Virus record (IMG/VR): IMGVR_UViG_3300032046_000052
Coordinates: 1 to 45,693 of that record
Reading direction: 5' to 3' (one strand)
Source of the DNA: a virus
Length of the DNA stretch: 45,693 nucleotides
Shown here: positions 4,475-31,533 of the stretch, piece by piece
How positions within the stretch are numbered: position 1 is the stretch's first letter
Layout: each line of letters opens with the position of its first letter
Translations under genes and position numbers: made by a program
Notes under the pieces: model-generated
Told to the model about the DNA's origin: nothing
The model's database searches: none
Seen by the model: only the letters and a program-made list of their open reading frames with translations

Positions 4475-4649
4475 ACGTACCTATCCATCCGACCCCAAAG
4501 GATACAGACGTTTTGTATGTTGTGAAAAAGGGTGTGAGGAAGGTGTAGCAAGAAACTTGGATGGTACAACAGATGGTAACTATAGGTGTCCACTACACAC
4601 TTATATTTACTATGCTCCGGTGTTTGATAAGCATAATCAGATGATTTGA
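4452..4649 (+). CDS. Small Cys/His protein, 65 residues
   Basis: GTG 4452 lies about 10 bases from aaaggag (4435-4441), better spaced than the in-frame ATG at 4461. CCEKGC (24-29), then CPLH about 18 residues later, could form a CCCH zinc site. No family recognised. Confidence 0.45.
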   Translation: MKIMKQTKRTYPSDPKGYRRFVCCEKGCEEGVARNLDGTTDGNYRCPLHTYIYYAPVFDKHNQMI

Positions 4650-4674
4650 CACTAACCTACAATGAGGGTATACT
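4646..4674 (+). promoter_or_regulatory. Sigma-70-type promoter inside the mini-gene run
   Basis: TTGACA (4646-4651), 17-base spacer, TATACT (4669-4674). The transcript would start near 4681, inside the next ORF, so its first full gene would be the Cas4-like nuclease at 4842 and then the oligosaccharyltransferase. The spacer resembles that of the promoter at 15341. Confidence 0.65.
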
Positions 4675-4842
4675 ATGGATGAGACTGGAAAATCACTAGA
4701 ATGTCTAGCTGAATATTGGGAAGGTGGAAAAAAGCAAAAAGAGTTAACACCTATAGCCTATGATGATCAAATTGATCTTCATAATTGGCTGAGGGATACT
4801 CCTGTCGAGTGGCTGATTGCAACATTGAAAGGAATAAAATAA
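4675..4842 (+). CDS. Hypothetical protein, 55 residues
   Basis: ATG 4675 follows gaggg (4664-4668). Acidic and soluble, with several Trp (AEYWEGGKK, HNWLRDTPVEWLI). Its start codon abuts the -10 box at 4669-4674, so it must be translated from a transcript starting further upstream. The final base of its stop is the first base of the next ATG. Function unknown. Confidence 0.45.
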   Translation: MDETGKSLECLAEYWEGGKKQKELTPIAYDDQIDLHNWLRDTPVEWLIATLKGIK

Positions 4843-5774
4843 TGCCAATCACAAAATTTATTTGTAAAGATGGTTCACAGATTGAACTAGGCAAATGTAT
4901 TTCTGATGGAGGTTGTCCTTTTCAATCCAGGTGCATGGCAAGACCTATGCTCAAGAAGATTGCCGTACAACGAGAATGGAAGGGAGTACCATCAACGACA
5001 CAGTTACTTAAAGGAACCAGGCAGGCATATCTTGAGATTGTAAACAATTTTTCTGTTAAACCGGACGATCGGGTATTTATGATCCTGGGAACCACGATTC
5101 ACAATGATCTTGAGGGTTTAGGAGATGCTACCTCGGTTGCTGAAATTGATCTGAGTGATGATGAAGGAAGTGTTCGCCCTGACCTTTTGGAATGTGAAAA
5201 GGGTGAATACACCATGATTGATTATAAAGTTTGTGGTAGCTATGTCCTTGAAAAAGCTCTTGGATTGTACAAAGTTGATGTCGCTGATCTTGACCCTGAA
5301 ACTGGCAATCCAATTTTATATAAGTCCGGTGAGAAGAAGGGAAAACCCAAAACACACAAAGTTGTCAAGCAAGATGACAAAAGAATTGACCTAAAAGATT
5401 GGCCTTATCAGTTAAATAACTATCGGATAGGGGTTGAAACTAAACTTGGAATCAAGGTCAAAAAGTTAACTGTGCAAGCAATTGTTAGGGATGGCGGTAC
5501 TGCTATTGCAGTAGGGCGCGGAGTTAAAGATAAGTCTTATCAGATTGAAATACCGATCTCACAGGACATAGAAATTAAAAATTATTTTCACAAGAAAAAA
5601 GTGGATTTACTTTTCTATCTCAAGCAAAAAAAGGTACCCCCACCCTGCTTCGAAAGAGAGAGATGGGATGATGATAGAAAGTGTACCGACTATTGTCCTG
5701 TCAATCAATTCTGTAGTTACTGGAAAGAGAAATACCAGGCCAACATCACGATTAATGAGGAATGGGATGGATAA
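4842..5774 (+). CDS. Cas4/RecB-like PD-(D/E)XK nuclease with Cys cluster
   Basis: A 310-residue protein. H87 in TTIHNDLE, RPDLLE (112-117) and IDYKV (126-130) follow the His, Asp, Asp-x-Lys order of RecB/Cas4-type PD-(D/E)XK nucleases. Cys25 and Cys31 near the N-terminus and Cys281, Cys285 and Cys291 near the C-terminus (CTDYCPVNQFC) could bind an iron-sulfur cluster as in Cas4/AddB-type exonucleases. The sequence between K130 and residue 190 carries a longer charged insertion. ATG 4842 is chosen because aagga precedes it and earlier in-frame codons read through another gene. A role in phage recombination or end processing is expected from the family. No Cas1/Cas2 is present, so this is not a CRISPR locus. 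Confidence 0.7.
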   Translation: MPITKFICKDGSQIELGKCISDGGCPFQSRCMARPMLKKIAVQREWKGVPSTTQLLKGTRQAYLEIVNNFSVKPDDRVFMILGTTIHNDLEGLGDATSVAEIDLSDDEGSVRPDLLECEKGEYTMIDYKVCGSYVLEKALGLYKVDVADLDPETGNPILYKSGEKKGKPKTHKVVKQDDKRIDLKDWPYQLNNYRIGVETKLGIKVKKLTVQAIVRDGGTAIAVGRGVKDKSYQIEIPISQDIEIKNYFHKKKVDLLFYLKQKKVPPPCFERERWDDDRKCTDYCPVNQFCSYWKEKYQANITINEEWDG

Positions 5775-5853
5775 ACACCTTTGCATAGCTGTTCTACTTT
5801 TGGTCATTACTATTTGCATCAAGATAGGAGATACCATTATCTGTAATGGGTAG
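5767..5853 (+). CDS. Single-span micro-membrane protein, 28 residues
   Basis: ATG 5767 with gagga upstream inside the nuclease 3' end. The product MDKHLCIAVLLLVITICIKI... is essentially one hydrophobic helix. Its last eight bases overlap the start of the oligosaccharyltransferase gene, whose own upstream region has only a distant ggag, so translation of this ORF probably feeds the next one. It may be only a coupling leader or a small membrane partner of that enzyme. Confidence 0.4.
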   Translation: MDKHLCIAVLLLVITICIKIGDTIICNG

Positions 5854-7363
5854 ATACTTCCTGCTAATTTTTCTCATTATCACCGCACTTTGGGTGAGGT
5901 ATGATCCAGTGGTACAGGACAGTTTACTAGAGGTTGATGGTTACTACTGGAAGATGCTAGGAAGCCAACCGTTAGCAGTTCAACTCGGTAAAGTACCTAA
6001 TCTGTTGCGTGTGGCACCTTTTGGTACCAACGAAAGTTTTAACCTTCATACCAGTTTAACATCCGGTCTTTCTTTTTCAGAATTATATATTTACGAAGGA
6101 TGCCTTGTTATTTTTTTGGGACTGATTACCTATCATGTAGGCGGCCTGCTATTGACTGGACTGATGCTTTTTTCACCAATCATTATTGCACGAACAGCTA
6201 TTGGGTGGAATGATACAGATATTTATATTATTATCTTTTCTTTGTTAATAACATCATCATTACACAAGAAACGATATTTCTTGGCAGGGATATATATTTC
6301 TGTGCTATCATTCTTCTGGCAGGGCTGGCCGATGCTTATGAGTTTGGCTATTTTGCACTGGTGCTTTTATAGTAGAACTTTGGAAGTAGCTATTAACTTA
6401 CTTGCTGGTTCACTTACGGCTTTAATTTACGGATTTGATCAGGTACAATCACTCCTTGCTATCATTCCAGCGATAGCTAAACAACATGCATATTGGCCTT
6501 CTGGATTAATAACCACTGCCGAGTTACAATGGACAGGCTGGCAGAAGGTAATATTTTTAACTCATCCAGCATCCATCTACGTGATTCTTCTTGGTAGTCT
6601 ACTGGCATTGATAAAAAGAAATTTCTACTTGCCCTTACTTCTAGGTTTAACTATTTACATGCTTTTTAAAGGAGAACGATTTTTACTACTTTGTTTTCCC
6701 ATTGTAGTATTTTTTGCAGTAATGGAACTCGGACGATGGAAGCCCCTTATTTTTTTAGCACTTTTCTACGTAACCATCACAGTTTTTCCAACTCAATCTC
6801 TGCATAAATATCTTCGTATTTATGATGACGGCTGGAAGGGAGCAGGGCAGTACGTTCAAACTCTGCCAAGGGATGCAGTAATTTTATCGTGGTGGAGTCC
6901 TGGGCATCTCATTACCTGCCTTGGTGATCGGGCTGTGGTAATTGACGGAGGATCACAGCATCTCAAACGTATCTTTTGGATTAGTCGAATACTAGCCACA
7001 ACTGATCTCCACGAAACACAATTGATTGGATTATACCTCGCTAATTTTGGTGATGTTGAAATAAATGCAATGGTTGATCAAGGAAAAAGTTGGAATCAAA
7101 TGCTTAATTTCATGACTTCCCAGTTGTCAACTAAAAAACTACGACCCGTATATCTTTTATTATATAAAGAAATGCTATTAAACTATCCAAGCATTTTACA
7201 AATGGCTAACTGGTTTGTTAAACAATATCCTGAAACTAAAATTCAATCTTTAGAGTCAACTTGCTATTTTAGATTGTTGACCAGACAATTTGACACTATC
7301 CTCCCACCACAGTATACTTATAATGATGGAAAAAATGTAATCAAAATATGGAGGTTAAGCTGA
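5846..7363 (+). CDS. PglB/STT3/AglB-like oligosaccharyltransferase
   Basis: A 505-residue polytopic membrane protein with most of the OST signature. Known role of the family: transfer of a lipid-linked glycan to Asn of exported proteins on the periplasmic side. First acidic motif VDGYYW (30-35); second, ARTAIGWNDTD (115-125), matches the family GYxDTD loop; a possible external-loop acidic motif TTAELQW (223-229); GERF at 276-279. The C-terminal domain opens with ILSWWSPGH (346-354) then GDRAVVIDGG (360-369), aligning with the family WWDYGY...DGG block, and continues with KRIFWISRIL and YLLLYKEML-YPSI, which mirror the family's later landmarks. About 11 membrane spans fill residues 1-315. WWDYG is changed to WWSPG. 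At 505 residues it is shorter than bacterial PglB (about 710). Two micro-membrane genes flank it. The family call rests on several motifs in the right order. Activity is unproven. Confidence 0.8.
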   Translation: MGRYFLLIFLIITALWVRYDPVVQDSLLEVDGYYWKMLGSQPLAVQLGKVPNLLRVAPFGTNESFNLHTSLTSGLSFSELYIYEGCLVIFLGLITYHVGGLLLTGLMLFSPIIIARTAIGWNDTDIYIIIFSLLITSSLHKKRYFLAGIYISVLSFFWQGWPMLMSLAILHWCFYSRTLEVAINLLAGSLTALIYGFDQVQSLLAIIPAIAKQHAYWPSGLITTAELQWTGWQKVIFLTHPASIYVILLGSLLALIKRNFYLPLLLGLTIYMLFKGERFLLLCFPIVVFFAVMELGRWKPLIFLALFYVTITVFPTQSLHKYLRIYDDGWKGAGQYVQTLPRDAVILSWWSPGHLITCLGDRAVVIDGGSQHLKRIFWISRILATTDLHETQLIGLYLANFGDVEINAMVDQGKSWNQMLNFMTSQLSTKKLRPVYLLLYKEMLLNYPSILQMANWFVKQYPETKIQSLESTCYFRLLTRQFDTILPPQYTYNDGKNVIKIWRLS

Positions 7364-15162: not shown

Positions 15163-15344
15163 TGCCACGATACTCTATCTGTCCCAAGTGTGAAAGATTT
15201 TTAATAGTTCCTGACTATGTTAACTGTTATCAATTCTGTACTCATCTTAAGGAAGTTCCACCTAACTCTGGAATGATCAATGGGTATTCAAAACTATCAA
15301 TTAGGGTTGAGAAAATAAGATGTAAGATTGTTGAGAAGAATTGA
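15162..15344 (+). CDS. Small Cys-containing protein, 60 residues
   Basis: ATG 15162 overlaps the previous stop. CPKC at 7-10, then C-x3-C (CYQFC) near 22-26, suggests a zinc site. Basic C-terminus. Its stop overlaps the -35 box of the promoter at 15341. No family recognised. Confidence 0.5.
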   Translation: MPRYSICPKCERFLIVPDYVNCYQFCTHLKEVPPNSGMINGYSKLSIRVEKIRCKIVEKN

Positions 15345-15369
15345 CAATGACCTCCAATAACGGTACACT
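15341..15369 (+). promoter_or_regulatory. Sigma-70-type promoter, sibling of the one at 4646
   Basis: TTGACA (15341-15346), 17-base spacer, TACACT (15364-15369). The spacer text (acctccaata, then cgg before the -10 box) resembles acctacaatgaggg in the promoter at 4646, beyond the two hexamers. The start near 15376 would give an almost leaderless transcript for the gene at 15385. Confidence 0.55.
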
Positions 15370-15384
15370 TAAAATGAGGATAAA

Positions 15385-16308
15385 ATGAAAAAAATATTCC
15401 TAACACCAGAGATTATGAAAGAGGTAGTTCAGCAAAATATCACTTATGTTGCTATCAAGTATGGTTGGACACGCTCAGCATTATCCAAGGCATTGACAAG
15501 ATACAAGGCAGAGCTAGTAATTAATGAAAAAATCCAGCAGGGATTGGATGATATTAAACATGGACGGTTAGTTCCAGCTGACCAAGTATTGAAGGATGTA
15601 AAAGACAAGCTAAAGTCACACAGAGTACTCATTATTGGTGACACGCATATTCCTTTTGAGCATCCAAAATACTTTGATTTTATACGACAGACCTACGATG
15701 AGTTTAACTGTAATACCGTAGTACACATAGGTGACGTGGTTGACAACCATGCAATCAGTTACCACGAACATAATCCTGATGGGATGTCTCCTGGGGATGA
15801 ACTTCTACAGGGAATTAAAATTCTTCAAACAAAATGGTATAAGACGTTTCCAGATGTACGAGTGTGCATGGGAAACCATGATGAACTAATTTATCGTAAA
15901 GCTATTACTAATGGCTTACCTAGAGCTGCATTTAGGTCAATCAATGAAATACTCCACGCGCCAATAGGTTGGACGTGGGATTTTTCACATGAGGTTGACC
16001 ATGTTCTTTACCAACATGGTACTGGCACGTCTGGTAAAACAGCCCACACTATTCGTTCAATGGGAAATAGGCAATCCACGGTGATAGGTCATATCCATAG
16101 TCATGCCGGTGTTGCCTATACTGCAAGTCAAAAAGATTTAATTTTTGGTATGAATGTGGGGTGTGGTCTAAATATTCGATCTTACGCTATGCTCTATGGT
16201 AAAGATTTTGTCAATCGTCCTACCTTGGGTTGCGGAGTTGTGCTTGAAGGAAAACATGCTTTCTTTATACCGATGGACTTGGGTGCTAAAATTCTGTTTA
16301 AGGAGTAA
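15385..16308 (+). CDS. Metallophosphoesterase with N-terminal HTH-like region, 307 residues
   Basis: Residues 10-45 look like a helix-turn-helix (TYVAIKYGWTRSALSKALTR). The catalytic domain begins near residue 79: IGDTHIPFEH (D86, H88), HIGDVVDNH (D117), MGNHDEL (N164, H165) and GHIHSHAG. The layout matches calcineurin-like phosphoesterases common in phage replication regions. Substrate unknown; the HTH suggests it may be brought to DNA (inference). Has its own promoter at 15341. Confidence 0.8.
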   Translation: MKKIFLTPEIMKEVVQQNITYVAIKYGWTRSALSKALTRYKAELVINEKIQQGLDDIKHGRLVPADQVLKDVKDKLKSHRVLIIGDTHIPFEHPKYFDFIRQTYDEFNCNTVVHIGDVVDNHAISYHEHNPDGMSPGDELLQGIKILQTKWYKTFPDVRVCMGNHDELIYRKAITNGLPRAAFRSINEILHAPIGWTWDFSHEVDHVLYQHGTGTSGKTAHTIRSMGNRQSTVIGHIHSHAGVAYTASQKDLIFGMNVGCGLNIRSYAMLYGKDFVNRPTLGCGVVLEGKHAFFIPMDLGAKILFKE

Positions 16309-18157: not shown

Positions 18158-18344
18158 AGAAGTTTGGTGTTCTGACTGCTGCCAAATGGTACCAGTTAAA
18201 TGGCCGCATAGCTGCTATGATTATGTCTATGCTGTAGCACGAGATATTTATTACCAGTTGGTTTCTATTGAGACTGGTGTTAAACTTCTACGAAGCATAG
18301 CTGCAAAAGGTAGACACTATGTTGATTTTAGTACGGGGGAATAA
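18114..18344 (+). CDS. Hypothetical basic protein with CxxC, 76 residues
   Basis: GTG 18114 with gggagg about 12 bases upstream. Very basic start (KQKKRLKKSKKDKE), then CSDCC and a helical domain. Likely nucleic-acid binding by charge (inference). Shares one base with the ligase start. Confidence 0.45.
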   Translation: MEKQKKRLKKSKKDKEVWCSDCCQMVPVKWPHSCYDYVYAVARDIYYQLVSIETGVKLLRSIAAKGRHYVDFSTGE

Positions 18345-18979
18345 TGAATGAATTTATTGCCTTTAGGAAAATACCTAGATTTAACCGTGAGATTATCATT
18401 ACTGAAAAAATTGATGGTACCAATGCTCAGATATTAATTTCACCAACAAACAAGTCTGATCCATCGGCACTACGTTCAATACCTATGCTATGTGCATTAG
18501 GTGGTAGTGGTAATCAAGTATCATTAATGTGTAATGTATATGCAGGTAGCAGGTCAAAGTGGATTACACTGGTAAATGATAATCATGGATTTGCCAAATG
18601 GGTATATGAACACGTTTATGACCTTGTTTGTATTCTTGGTATAGGTAGATTCTATGGCGAGTGGTGGGGTAAAGGAATACAACGAGGATATGGATTAGAA
18701 GAAAAGAGATTCAGTTTATTTAATCCTTTCTTTGAGTTTAAAAGTGATCCTAATGCTTTTGGTACTCCTTTGGTTTACACTGTACCCTTGCTCGCAAAAG
18801 GAAGTAAACCTAGCTCATCTGGGATTAAACTTTCTTTAGATATTCTACGAGAGACAGGAAGTCAGGCAGCACCAGGATATATGAAACCAGAAGGAGTAGT
18901 AATCTACCACACAGCTAGTGGACAGAACTTTAAGGTAACTTATGAAAATGATGAGGGAGGAAAGAATGAAGAGATTTAA
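18344..18979 (+). CDS. RNA ligase (Rnl2-like nucleotidyltransferase)
   Basis: 211 residues. Motif I EKIDG at 21-25 gives the adenylated Lys22; motif Ia YAGSRSKWI near 66; motif III RFYGEWWGKG at 102-111; motif IV EGVVIY at 183-188; motif V FKVTY at 196-200. This order defines the covalent nucleotidyltransferase superfamily, and the short length without an OB domain resembles small phage Rnl2-like RNA ligases more than DNA ligases. Such enzymes reseal broken tRNA or nicked RNA, in some phages against host anticodon nucleases. No polynucleotide kinase is evident nearby. Confidence 0.8.
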   Translation: MNEFIAFRKIPRFNREIIITEKIDGTNAQILISPTNKSDPSALRSIPMLCALGGSGNQVSLMCNVYAGSRSKWITLVNDNHGFAKWVYEHVYDLVCILGIGRFYGEWWGKGIQRGYGLEEKRFSLFNPFFEFKSDPNAFGTPLVYTVPLLAKGSKPSSSGIKLSLDILRETGSQAAPGYMKPEGVVIYHTASGQNFKVTYENDEGGKNEEI

Positions 18980-27069: not shown

Positions 27070-30000
27070 TTATCTAACGCCTCGTTTCGTGAAGCGAATA
27101 CCGAGGTTATTTATCTCAATTGCTTGACCTTGACTGTAACCCGATACTCTGAGTTGCGCTTGTTGTACCCGTTGACGGATTAAAAGTACCTTCTCTTCTC
27201 CGCTAATTAGATCAACATTTTGATCAGCAATAGAGTCCTTACCAAGATTCTTGGACACTCTAATCCTTAGATTCTGAGCTGTTAAGGCATCTTGGTGATT
27301 CAAGATCAAATCATGTATCATATTCTTATCGGTGTTTCTTGCAAACTGAAAGTTCTTTGATTTCCAATCCAACTCGTAAGCACCAATGTAGTACCGATAC
27401 GCCGAAGATGGATTTACTGCAAAACCAGATGAAACATCATACTCATACAGTTTAGCATTAGGTGCAGTTCCTACATATAATTTATTATTAAATACTGCTA
27501 CACCATATAAACTTGTCTCTGCTCCTGGCTGACCTGCAACGTCAACAAAAGCACTCACATTATCCCATCTTCCTAATCTTGCACTACCATTACTTCCAGC
27601 ATACAAACTACCACGATAAACCAGTAGAGTCTTAAGTTGGGATTGTCCTGGTAGAGGGTTTGCCCTTAATACCCAAGCATTTACGCCATTCCATTCGTAG
27701 AGTTGTGCACCACCAGCCCAACCCACTCCACCATAAAGTTTACTATTAAATTCGCAAAGACTCCATCCTGTAGCACTACCAATACTAACAGTCTTAGCCG
27801 CCCATGCACTAACCCCATCCCATTCATAAAGTTTGGCATTGGGATCACCAAAAGCATATAATTTGCCATTAAAGACTGTCAAACAAGTACAAGAGGTTCC
27901 TACTGCCGGTGACGGAGCACGTTGTATCCAATTATTAACTCCATCCCACTCCAAAAGTCTACCGCCTGTGGTAGCACCATAGATTTTATTATTCAGTACT
28001 GCTACCCCGTATACTGCCTCACCTGGAAAACTTGGAGCAACCTGTACCCACGCATTTATACCATTCCATTTGTACAAATAACTAAAAGGTGAAGTTCCAC
28101 CATATAGTTCATTATTATAAATGCATAAGCACATTACTCCCGCAGCACCGCCTAGCTTTGGTGCTTTTACAACCCATGCAGTTCCACTCCACTCCCACAA
28201 GGAACCATTCTGAGCAGAAGTTCCGTACAATTTTCCATTAAATTCTATCATGGCAGCAATATACTGCTCTGTTCCACCTGCCCTGGCAGCACGTTCTACC
28301 CAACCTGCTGTGTTCTCAATTGTGATAACCGTTCCGGTATTCGAAAGAATTTTCCTTTTCTCAAATGACTTATTCACGGTATCGTAGAGAACAAGACCCA
28401 TGGCCTTAAGACCACTTCCTGTCGTGGTAAAAACCGCTGTTGAGTCAATCATTTCAATCGGTGTTCCACCAGTAGGCGTTCCAGATAACGTACCTGTTTG
28501 TACACCATCATTATATCCTACCCAAAGTTGTGATACGAATCCATCATAATCACCAATATAAACACTGGCGATATTGTTGGCATCATAAACAATTGCTGAA
28601 CACATGGCCTCAATGCCGGTAAAGTAATACCATTTCCATTTAGAAGGATCAAGACTTGCCCGATCCCAAATTAAGCACACGTCATTGGTAGTAGAATTTT
28701 TAGATGCAATGAATAACCATAGCCATCGTTTTGTGGTATCATAAATAGCATGAGACTGACTAAATTTTGCGGTATTAAATCCAAGATCATGTGAGCCGTC
28801 AAATAGTTCAATCAGTATGTCACTTACCAAGGAAACCGTAAACCCATCACAGGTAGCAATTCCTTGTTCACCGGCTAACCAAACTGCATTACCCTTCTCA
28901 TCCTGAACAATCGTATCGTGGGATGCGCATCCGATGGCCGCTGAAATTCGGTTGACTGACCAAGGAGCATAGTTGCCTTCACAGATAAAAGTCGAGAATT
29001 GTTTGGTGGCAAGAAAGACATCTCCGACTAACCCAAGACCCGTAAGATTTTCTCCTGGTTTTCCGTCTGTAATTGTCTGAACTAGTTCCGCAGGAAAACC
29101 ATGATAACGACTAATATTATCATCGTCAATAAAAGAGGTGTGAAGTGCATTTTCATCTCCTATAATCTGGTAGACAGCCACCGCGTTAGTTGATCCTTTA
29201 TAAACCCCGCTAACCAAATTATCAATAGGACGTATAACAAGAGTGTTGCCAGCAATAGTAATACTTTCGATAAGATATTTTTGAGTATCTCCACTGACTC
29301 GAAATTCCTTTCCTATCATACTGAGGTTAACGACACCAGGACTATTTAAAGTGACCGTAGCAGAACCATTAACCACAGCCGCAGTTCCTAGTGTATAAGG
29401 AATTGATCCTGCAAGAATGATGGTATTTCTATAGAGAAGTAAATAAGGTGAAGCGTAGGGTGGAGCATAAGAACCTGATCCTGCTTCACCTGATGGATGT
29501 TTACGTTTCAAACCTAATGAGGCATCAGAAAGAGTCAGTGCAGCCGTTGTGGTCACATTATCAAAGATTGTAGATTCAAGATAGGGGACTGTTCCACCGG
29601 CTTGTGATCTATAAATCCTTCTCGCATCGACCTGAGTATCCGTTGATACCGGAATAGAGGACAGAGCAATAGCCTGTCCTTGAATGTCCACCACATTTGA
29701 AATAGGACTAAGGTCTGATTCACGATCATACTTAGTAGCATAAAAAGAAACCCATGTATAATACCGTCCGGTTAAGTTTCCTGCGGCAGTACTGGCATAT
29801 CGAATATTATCCAGCCAAATTGTTATTGGCATGGCTGATCTCTTTACAACTTTGATTCCTTCACTGACAATTGCCGTGTCACCAGCAGGTGTTGCCAAGG
29901 TAAGATTAAGTTGCTGCCAAGTTTCCTCAGTTAAATCCGGTGTGATATAGAGTGATTCTAAAGGTGATGCACATAAAGGTGAGTCATCAAGAAGATACTG

Positions 30001-31533
30001 AAGAACCTGGTATCCCAAATATTTATCTGATCGTAAATTCATCAACATCGTGGTAGCTGTGTGCATATCCGTAGAAGCCAATGCTTTATAAGCCACCAGA
30101 GTTGCATCAGCAACCCCACCTGGAATTTCCATCTTAACTGAGTAGTTACCCTCTACACGATTAACTGCATCTAAGGTAATTCTACATCGAATGGCCTTGA
30201 TGTCATCAAGATAAATAGCGTTCATACCTTTATCTCGATTTAATGCCAATGCAAGACTAGCCACTGATGTTAGCGCAGATGTGACTTTAAATTGATACTG
30301 TATCTTTGTCCACTCACCGGCATTAAGGGCAGGAAGATTACACCGTTCCAATTCATCGGCACCGGCTGCTGTATCACAAAGAACTAAACTTAAATCTCCA
30401 TCTGCCAGTGACTTTGCTGATTTAATCCAAAAGTCTAAACCCCAATAAGTTGATAAGTCTTGGGGAGATGATAAGTTTTTTGTACAAACTAATCCTGTAA
30501 TACCTATTGGATCATTTGTTAATTCTGAAAAATCGCCTGCTTCAGTACCAGGAACGATAAATGGAAATACCTTGTGCCTTGCAATTCCTTTATCTATACG
30601 AAACTCATCAAACCAACCATCTACCGAATTAGAACCCGCATAACGACCAATCTCTAAGGTACCAGTTGGAACAATATTACTTGAATTTACAGCTGCTATT
30701 TGTGATACCCCATCACATGAAAATCGTAAATCAGTTCCATTTCTACTTATTTCAAAATAGTACCATGTATTGATACTTGGCATCCCAAGAGTACAGGAAC
30801 CAACTGAAACGCTATTAATAGAAAGATTATATCGTCCTACTGGAAAGTTCTCAAGATGAAGGTAAACCGCTGATCCAAGCATGAAAATCATTGTATTGGC
30901 AGTAACTGTCTGATACCTAATCCAGAAACCTATGGTAAAATCTCCCGTACCAAAGGTAAAATCGGAAGTAACCGGTGTTGATATATAATTAGCTACACTC
31001 CCACCATTCAAAAAGCAGGAACCACTTCCAAATTTAGTTTGTGCTGTATCAATTTGTGCATTACCAAATGCTGTAATTGGATGGGCACTTAAGGAACTAT
31101 CAACAAAAGTAGTTGAACCATCTGTTCCATTACAATGGAGCATTAGTTTAGTGTATGTGTCAAGTGGTTCAACTGCTGACCCAACTAATAAAAGAGCCGA
31201 ATACGAACCTACCTTATAATCAGATGAGGCAAGGCATAATACCTCTGAACCTGCTGGCAAACTTCCAGCCAATGACCATGCACTTTCACAATCAGCCAAG
31301 ACCAAAGAAACTGGTGTCCATAAAGATTCACACATATCCAGATTAACAGAACCGGTTGATGTTCCGGTGGCCGATGGTGCCGTGGTTGGTGCATAGACTC
31401 CCCAATTAACCAGAGTTGTACCATCGTGCATTTTAGGAAGTGTCAGACCATCTGTAAGATAGCAAAGTCTTTCCGCAGTTCGACCTCGATACGGTTTAGC
31501 GGCTAAGACTGTAAGTTCTGTCAATGTTGGCAT
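27070..31533 (-). CDS. Giant tail protein with inserted LamG domain and Kelch-like repeats, 1487 residues
   Basis: Domains in order: an N-terminal region like the core of tail-tubular proteins (RTAERLCYLTDGLTLPKMHD); a jelly-roll domain split around residues 121-330 by a LamG/concanavalin-like domain (LHCNGTDGSTTFVDSS, GDFTIGFWIRY, DEFRIDKG); further jelly-roll and linker regions; then from about residue 1080 to 1370 about seven repeats of 45-50 residues of the type LYEWNGVNAW-V..AP...G-V.VFNNKLYG, predicting a Kelch-like beta-propeller. The C-terminus returns to virion-type beta sequence. A carbohydrate-binding adhesin role is likely; exact receptor unknown. Confidence 0.7.
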   Translation of the reverse strand: MPTLTELTVLAAKPYRGRTAERLCYLTDGLTLPKMHDGTTLVNWGVYAPTTAPSATGTSTGSVNLDMCESLWTPVSLVLADCESAWSLAGSLPAGSEVLCLASSDYKVGSYSALLLVGSAVEPLDTYTKLMLHCNGTDGSTTFVDSSLSAHPITAFGNAQIDTAQTKFGSGSCFLNGGSVANYISTPVTSDFTFGTGDFTIGFWIRYQTVTANTMIFMLGSAVYLHLENFPVGRYNLSINSVSVGSCTLGMPSINTWYYFEISRNGTDLRFSCDGVSQIAAVNSSNIVPTGTLEIGRYAGSNSVDGWFDEFRIDKGIARHKVFPFIVPGTEAGDFSELTNDPIGITGLVCTKNLSSPQDLSTYWGLDFWIKSAKSLADGDLSLVLCDTAAGADELERCNLPALNAGEWTKIQYQFKVTSALTSVASLALALNRDKGMNAIYLDDIKAIRCRITLDAVNRVEGNYSVKMEIPGGVADATLVAYKALASTDMHTATTMLMNLRSDKYLGYQVLQYLLDDSPLCASPLESLYITPDLTEETWQQLNLTLATPAGDTAIVSEGIKVVKRSAMPITIWLDNIRYASTAAGNLTGRYYTWVSFYATKYDRESDLSPISNVVDIQGQAIALSSIPVSTDTQVDARRIYRSQAGGTVPYLESTIFDNVTTTAALTLSDASLGLKRKHPSGEAGSGSYAPPYASPYLLLYRNTIILAGSIPYTLGTAAVVNGSATVTLNSPGVVNLSMIGKEFRVSGDTQKYLIESITIAGNTLVIRPIDNLVSGVYKGSTNAVAVYQIIGDENALHTSFIDDDNISRYHGFPAELVQTITDGKPGENLTGLGLVGDVFLATKQFSTFICEGNYAPWSVNRISAAIGCASHDTIVQDEKGNAVWLAGEQGIATCDGFTVSLVSDILIELFDGSHDLGFNTAKFSQSHAIYDTTKRWLWLFIASKNSTTNDVCLIWDRASLDPSKWKWYYFTGIEAMCSAIVYDANNIASVYIGDYDGFVSQLWVGYNDGVQTGTLSGTPTGGTPIEMIDSTAVFTTTGSGLKAMGLVLYDTVNKSFEKRKILSNTGTVITIENTAGWVERAARAGGTEQYIAAMIEFNGKLYGTSAQNGSLWEWSGTAWVVKAPKLGGAAGVMCLCIYNNELYGGTSPFSYLYKWNGINAWVQVAPSFPGEAVYGVAVLNNKIYGATTGGRLLEWDGVNNWIQRAPSPAVGTSCTCLTVFNGKLYAFGDPNAKLYEWDGVSAWAAKTVSIGSATGWSLCEFNSKLYGGVGWAGGAQLYEWNGVNAWVLRANPLPGQSQLKTLLVYRGSLYAGSNGSARLGRWDNVSAFVDVAGQPGAETSLYGVAVFNNKLYVGTAPNAKLYEYDVSSGFAVNPSSAYRYYIGAYELDWKSKNFQFARNTDKNMIHDLILNHQDALTAQNLRIRVSKNLGKDSIADQNVDLISGEEKVLLIRQRVQQAQLRVSGYSQGQAIEINNLGIRFTKRGVR

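Follow-up and report, generated by a model that had tools for sequence, protein, structure and literature searches.

Does a tailed bacteriophage encode an oligosaccharyltransferase (OST), and what does it mean if the WWDYG motif of this enzyme family is altered in it? The question is raised by a gene in an IMG/VR virus record of 45,693 bases, which was analysed over its whole length (the window). An earlier note, made from the letters alone, had described this gene as a phage-encoded relative of STT3 and PglB with WWSPG in place of WWDYG. The analysis confirmed that the gene is real and gave good support for its homology to this family; it is unusual in a phage, and the change in its motif is meaningful. 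The positions of the gene, its motifs and the elements ahead of it are collected in Table 1.

Table 1. Positions in the window of the OST-like gene, its motifs and upstream elements (fractions refer to the reference rows of the alignment)
Feature	Position	Strand	Remarks
Sigma-70-like promoter TTGACA-17-TATACT	4646-4674	+	precedes the exonuclease-like and the OST-like gene; similar flanks at 7290 and 15341
Phage exonuclease-like gene	4785-5774	+	directly upstream of OST-like gene; phrog_2139, E 7.5e-13
AGGAG, possible ribosome-binding site	5826-5830	+	15 nt before ATG (long spacing)
OST-like gene	5846-7363	+	ATG start, 505 aa; STT3/PglB/AglB homologue; predicted GT-C fold and shortened extracytoplasmic domain
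D31, first external-loop Asp (metal site)	5936-5938	+	D in 42/43
D123-T-D125, second DXD motif (metal site)	6212-6220	+	D 40/43 at D123; D/E 43/43 at D125
T223-T-A-E226, TIXE motif of external loop 5 (EL5)	6512-6523	+	T/S 43/43, E 41/43
R278, invariant Arg, presumed lipid-pyrophosphate contact	6677-6679	+	R 43/43
W349-W-S-P-G353, altered WWDYG motif	6890-6904	+	W, W, D, G 43/43 in references; here S, P
D367-G-G369, DGGK-type motif (here DGGS)	6944-6952	+	DGG 43/43; following S 10/43
M443-L-L-N446, altered MI/DK motif	7172-7183	+	M 34/43; at N446 column I 26/43, K 12/43

Homology to the STT3/PglB/AglB family

All motifs listed in the earlier note (VDGYYW, ARTAIGWNDTD, TTAELQW, ILSWWSPGH and GDRAVVIDGG) were found in this order within the 505-aa frame and contain D31; D123 and D125; E226; W349-W350; and D367-G369. 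Its count of about 11 membrane spans agreed with hydropathy (about 11), whereas the helices of the predicted model fit about 12-13.

The Pfam profile STT3-PglB_core (PF21436) scored 33.7 bits on the phage protein against a cut-off of 23, and the N-terminal STT3 model (PF02516) reached 13.6 bits, which is below its cut-off of 24.5 and suggestive only. A search of NCBIfam gave no usable match, and in a phmmer search of PDB sequences STT3 was the sole match (E 1.6). A family HMM built from 86 cellular STT3-family proteins scored 84.5 bits over residues 76-460, as compared with a maximum of 3.8 bits in 1,000 shuffles (500 full and 500 block-wise), and homology to STT3/PglB/AglB is therefore secure. 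The spacing common to the phage protein and PglB, written as the DNA pattern WWxxG-7-D-5-DGG, occurred once in the window and in 0 of 100 shuffles. In genome contigs it was found at 119 loci, among them STT3-family proteins of Campylobacterota, Nitrospirota, SAR324, Methanobacteria and DPANN archaea, the remainder being chance matches.

AlphaFold2 gave no usable model from the single sequence (pLDDT 40), and folding with an alignment of OST homologues led to a model with a pTM of 0.80 and a mean pLDDT of 75. The best 14 Foldseek matches of this model in the PDB were all OSTs, which is to be read as agreement and not as independent proof, because the alignment behind the model consisted of OST homologues. 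By VIA-align, residues 1-505 matched yeast, human and archaeal OSTs with Z of about 16-21 and C. lari PglB with 16.9, PMT enzymes matched the membrane part only (residues 1-324), and the soluble domain alone matched the C. jejuni PglB domain with Z 13.9 and an rmsd of 3.3 Å over 154 residues. The predicted architecture is that of the family, with a GT-C membrane domain and an extracytoplasmic domain. Thus, both an STT3 profile match (with PF21436 and the family HMM) and a matching fold were obtained, the two points on which the earlier proposal had been made to depend. Descent of the phage protein from this family is established; as a homologue of the STT3/PglB/AglB catalytic subunit, it is minimal and far diverged.

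Conserved residues and the altered Ser/Thr pocket

Residue conservation was read from a 44-row alignment of the phage protein, C. jejuni PglB and 42 other OSTs. R278, W349, W350, G353, D361, D367, G368 and G369 were invariant, and D31, D123, D125 and E226 lay in columns conserved to at least 90%, so that the residues proposed beforehand for the active site all fall in invariant or near-invariant family columns. These catalytic residues are retained at an overall identity of only about 20%. The Asp of EL1 and the DXD motif of EL2, the TIXE/SVSE motif of EL5 (here TTAE, in which T and E align and I is replaced by T) and the DGGK-type motif are all present. Two family motifs are changed: in WWDYG, the Asp is replaced by Ser351 and the Tyr/Phe by Pro352, with W, W and G kept, and in DK/MI, the stretch EMLLN keeps the Met and carries Asn446 at the I/K position.

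WWDYG and DK/MI together form the pocket for the Ser/Thr at position +2 of the sequon, the backbone of which is bound by TIXE (PMC8342417). In C. jejuni PglB, the mutations D459V, D459N (as a double mutant with S492C) and Y460N abolish activity, and at I571 only Cys or a hydrophobic residue is tolerated (PMC3527161). At D459, Y460 and I571 alike, the phage protein has a different residue, and since changes of D459 and Y460 inactivate PglB, the altered WWDYG motif casts real doubt on a standard activity. As read from the alignment, donor and metal residues are kept and the Ser/Thr(+2) pocket is rebuilt on either side. Metal, lipid-linked glycan and the peptide backbone could thus still be bound, and the +2 position would not be read as in other OSTs. 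With changes on both sides of this pocket, acceptor choice may be altered or relaxed. The protein probably works like an OST, having most features of the family but not WWDYG and MI/DK, and it is not called a proven N-X-S/T OST here because of the lost Asp of WWD.

The main rival to a changed acceptor rule is release of the glycan from its lipid carrier. As a lipid-linked-oligosaccharide hydrolase or decoy, the protein would keep its donor site, acceptors would be unproductive, and the glycan would be drained or sequestered, by which glycosylation of the host surface would fall. Kept donor-side residues next to a changed acceptor-side pocket speak for this, as does the observation that OSTs also detach glycan from its lipid carrier, an activity that mutations in the DK motif can uncouple from transfer (PMC8342417). 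However, the residues for acceptor binding, TIXE and both Trp, have been retained, and the known uncoupling mutations go in the opposite direction (hydrolysis lost, transfer kept); the hydrolase or decoy is considered rather unlikely.

Somewhat less probable still is a standard N-X-S/T OST, in which Ser351 and other residues stand in for the missing Asp and the usual acceptor rule still applies. Both Trp, TIXE, the metal site and DGG are kept, and remote OSTs vary greatly elsewhere. However, changes of D459 inactivate PglB (PMC3527161), the MI/DK residue facing WWD is also changed, and the Asp is found in 150 of the 153 family members with a core column. The phage protein is one of the three exceptions. 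The others are a WWPAG paralogue of the Desulfobacterota group (L216, from genome G006; motif context WWPAGYFASYF), the sole cellular WW-x-x-G core without the Asp, and a Nitrospirota paralogue (L161) with the true motif APWSFG. The latter was rejected as a WWS relative, as hmmalign had read WWSFG where the real sequence is APWSFG. STT3-like paralogues that likewise do without the Asp, namely L161 (APWSFGH) and L159 (AEWSIGS) of Nitrospirota and L216, show no close similarity to the phage protein (blastp E 0.04, 0.94 and 1e-8, respectively), and L161 and L159, unlike the phage protein, also miss the second W and DGG. The suggestion that WWSPG might mark a divergent subgroup was not borne out, as no relative with WWSPG was found among the cellular and viral relatives searched.

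A decayed, inactive relic might be suspected from the lost Asp and the great length of the branch (2.8 changes per site), but the 505-codon frame is intact and the catalytic residues are selectively retained at about 20% identity, which makes decay quite improbable. An enzyme with a changed or relaxed acceptor rule is the leading reading and is followed below.

Cellular relatives and origin

The best cellular matches were archaeal AglB proteins of DPANN archaea (matches in 207 of 279 genomes, best E 5e-15, core identity mostly 30-40%), followed by proteins of Nitrospirota, the Desulfobacterota group and SAR324. AglB (DPANN/Woesearchaeota, Methanobacteria; A. fulgidus 3WAJ/5GMY/7E9S) is about 25% identical overall and 30-43% in the core, and shares with the phage protein the GH, DRxV and DGGSQ motifs and the Asp of NDAW-type motifs. 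It differs in its length (850-1,000 aa versus 505 aa) and in having WWDFG and DMxxK, where the phage protein has WWSPG and EMLLN, and it is archaeal. Bacterial PglB (C. jejuni/C. lari, 5OGL, 3RCE; Desulfobacterota, Nitrospirota) shares the whole-length fold, the metal site, TIXE, DGG and the Met of the MI motif at 17-20% identity, whereas the WWDYG and MI motifs are changed in the phage protein, the extracytoplasmic domain is shorter (about 175 aa versus about 280 in PglB), and R465 and G481 of C. jejuni PglB are not kept.

In the tree, the phage protein stood on the archaeal AglB side, a placement that is not trusted because its branch is too long (2.8 changes per site). No close relative was found among about 1,870 cellular genomes, and Patescibacteria were rejected as a source (0 of 240 genomes). 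These results do not single out a donor lineage.

Search for viral relatives

A tblastn search with the phage protein and three cellular OSTs gave no match in 50,697 phage genomes, no PHROGs family was matched by five cellular OSTs, and plasmids gave no match. Scans for close relatives returned nothing, either with the OST-like protein in viral and genome contigs or with the primase and exonuclease proteins in viral contigs. Motif and alignment-based scans of IMG/VR yielded no OST, an absence of limited reach, because such scans need exact codon-compatible motifs and divergent copies can be missed. Candidates from the motif scans were rejected: nine viral contigs with WWxxG-7-D-5-DGG were all chance matches, three viral SWWD[YF]G[YH] matches lay in frames of only 17-34 aa, one viral RTAxGxxDTDxY match (L177) had a stop inside the motif, and none of 59 pattern matches in an alignment-based viral scan was a relative. 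A second viral copy for a selection test was not present in the collections searched. In BFVD there was nothing under E 0.001; the best viral structural match, A0A8S5S3I0 (Siphoviridae sp. ctBLh2, 810 aa; E 0.015, TMq 0.31), is perhaps a further GT-C protein encoded by a phage.

The open literature searched contained no description of a phage OST, although one may exist. The survey of phage genomes, PHROGs, BFVD and IMG/VR motifs agrees with the earlier statement that no well-studied phage OST is known, and a phage OST appears to be new.

Genomic context and expression

The record carries genes for a family A DNA polymerase (PolA) and a TOPRIM-DnaB primase-helicase as well as a T4-type terminase, a portal, a major head protein, a tail fibre and other virion proteins, and terminase, portal, head and replication genes on one record confirm the context of a tailed bacteriophage. 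The OST-like gene shares its strand (+) with the replication genes and is set apart from the virion genes, which are on the minus strand. Genes for a metallophosphoesterase (15385-16308) and an RNA ligase (18344-18979) also lie on the plus strand among the replication genes.

Three sigma-70-like promoters on the plus strand (4646-4674, 7290-7318 and 15341-15369) have the repeat TTGACA-17-TATACT/TACACT in common and are similar in their longer flanks (TTGACAcTaaCCTcCaa...GTATACT). The OST-like gene contains the copy at 7290-7318 in its 3' end. Promoter-like matches in the region overall were not above chance, and real promoters are suggested by the flanks shared among the three sites and not by the total count. 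From the placement with the exonuclease-like gene behind the promoter at 4646 and on the replication strand, early expression of the OST-like gene is inferred, as would suit a takeover of the host.

Shine-Dalgarno sites are found ahead of many genes. Together with the -35/-10 repeats, PolA and the T4-type terminase, they favour a bacterial host over an archaeal one, which had been considered since AglB is the nearest group. That host DNA was misassembled into the phage contig is very improbable: a single contig carries the gene and related contigs (L002-L004) cover the terminase side only, but the gene sits between phage genes of the same strand at distances of 71 and 19 bases, resembles its neighbours in codon-position GC, carries the phage promoter repeat in its 3' end and has no close cellular relative among the genomes searched (about 1,870).

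Proposed role in infection

The chances are about even that the phage protein acts as an early membrane OST-like enzyme which moves host lipid-linked glycan onto host surface proteins under altered acceptor rules. It would be inserted into the host inner membrane early in infection, where the retained metal/Arg site would bind the host polyprenyl-pyrophosphate-linked oligosaccharide. The glycan would then be transferred to exported or surface proteins of the host, and the acceptor rule would be changed or relaxed through the rebuilt +2 pocket. By analogy, the likely benefit would be a masked surface receptor and, perhaps, a block of superinfection. Near the OST-like gene, neither a glycan-synthesis gene nor an evident acceptor was found. 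The boldest form of this proposal, a first known viral OST that seizes host lipid-linked glycan, lacks the usual +2 pocket, follows a new acceptor rule and remodels the host surface, is put forward only tentatively and with less confidence.

Phage enzymes of surface conversion, such as the serotype-converting glycosyltransferases, change the host surface by acting on O-antigen or lipid carriers. The likeness to the OST-like protein is the proposed change of the host surface during infection, and the difference is that OST chemistry is not involved in serotype conversion. If active, a phage OST would mean that the central step of protein glycosylation can be taken over by viruses. A natural enzyme with the donor site and a rebuilt +2 pocket would make the basis of the N-X-S/T rule directly testable, and a single-chain OST of 505 aa with new acceptor rules, if true, would be of interest to glycoprotein engineers.

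Two other loci of the window were noted. A virion protein of 1,487 aa (27070-31533, minus strand) combines a Laminin_G_3 (ConA-like lectin) domain with an internal-virion-protein-like stretch and is a possible glycan binder. Elsewhere, two overlapping plus-strand genes (71-1378 and 1194-2465) encode an Amidoligase_2 protein, in which there is a LIM-like zinc stretch, and a class II glutamine amidotransferase, and this pair (71-2465) may be a second modifying system with a peptide or surface target.
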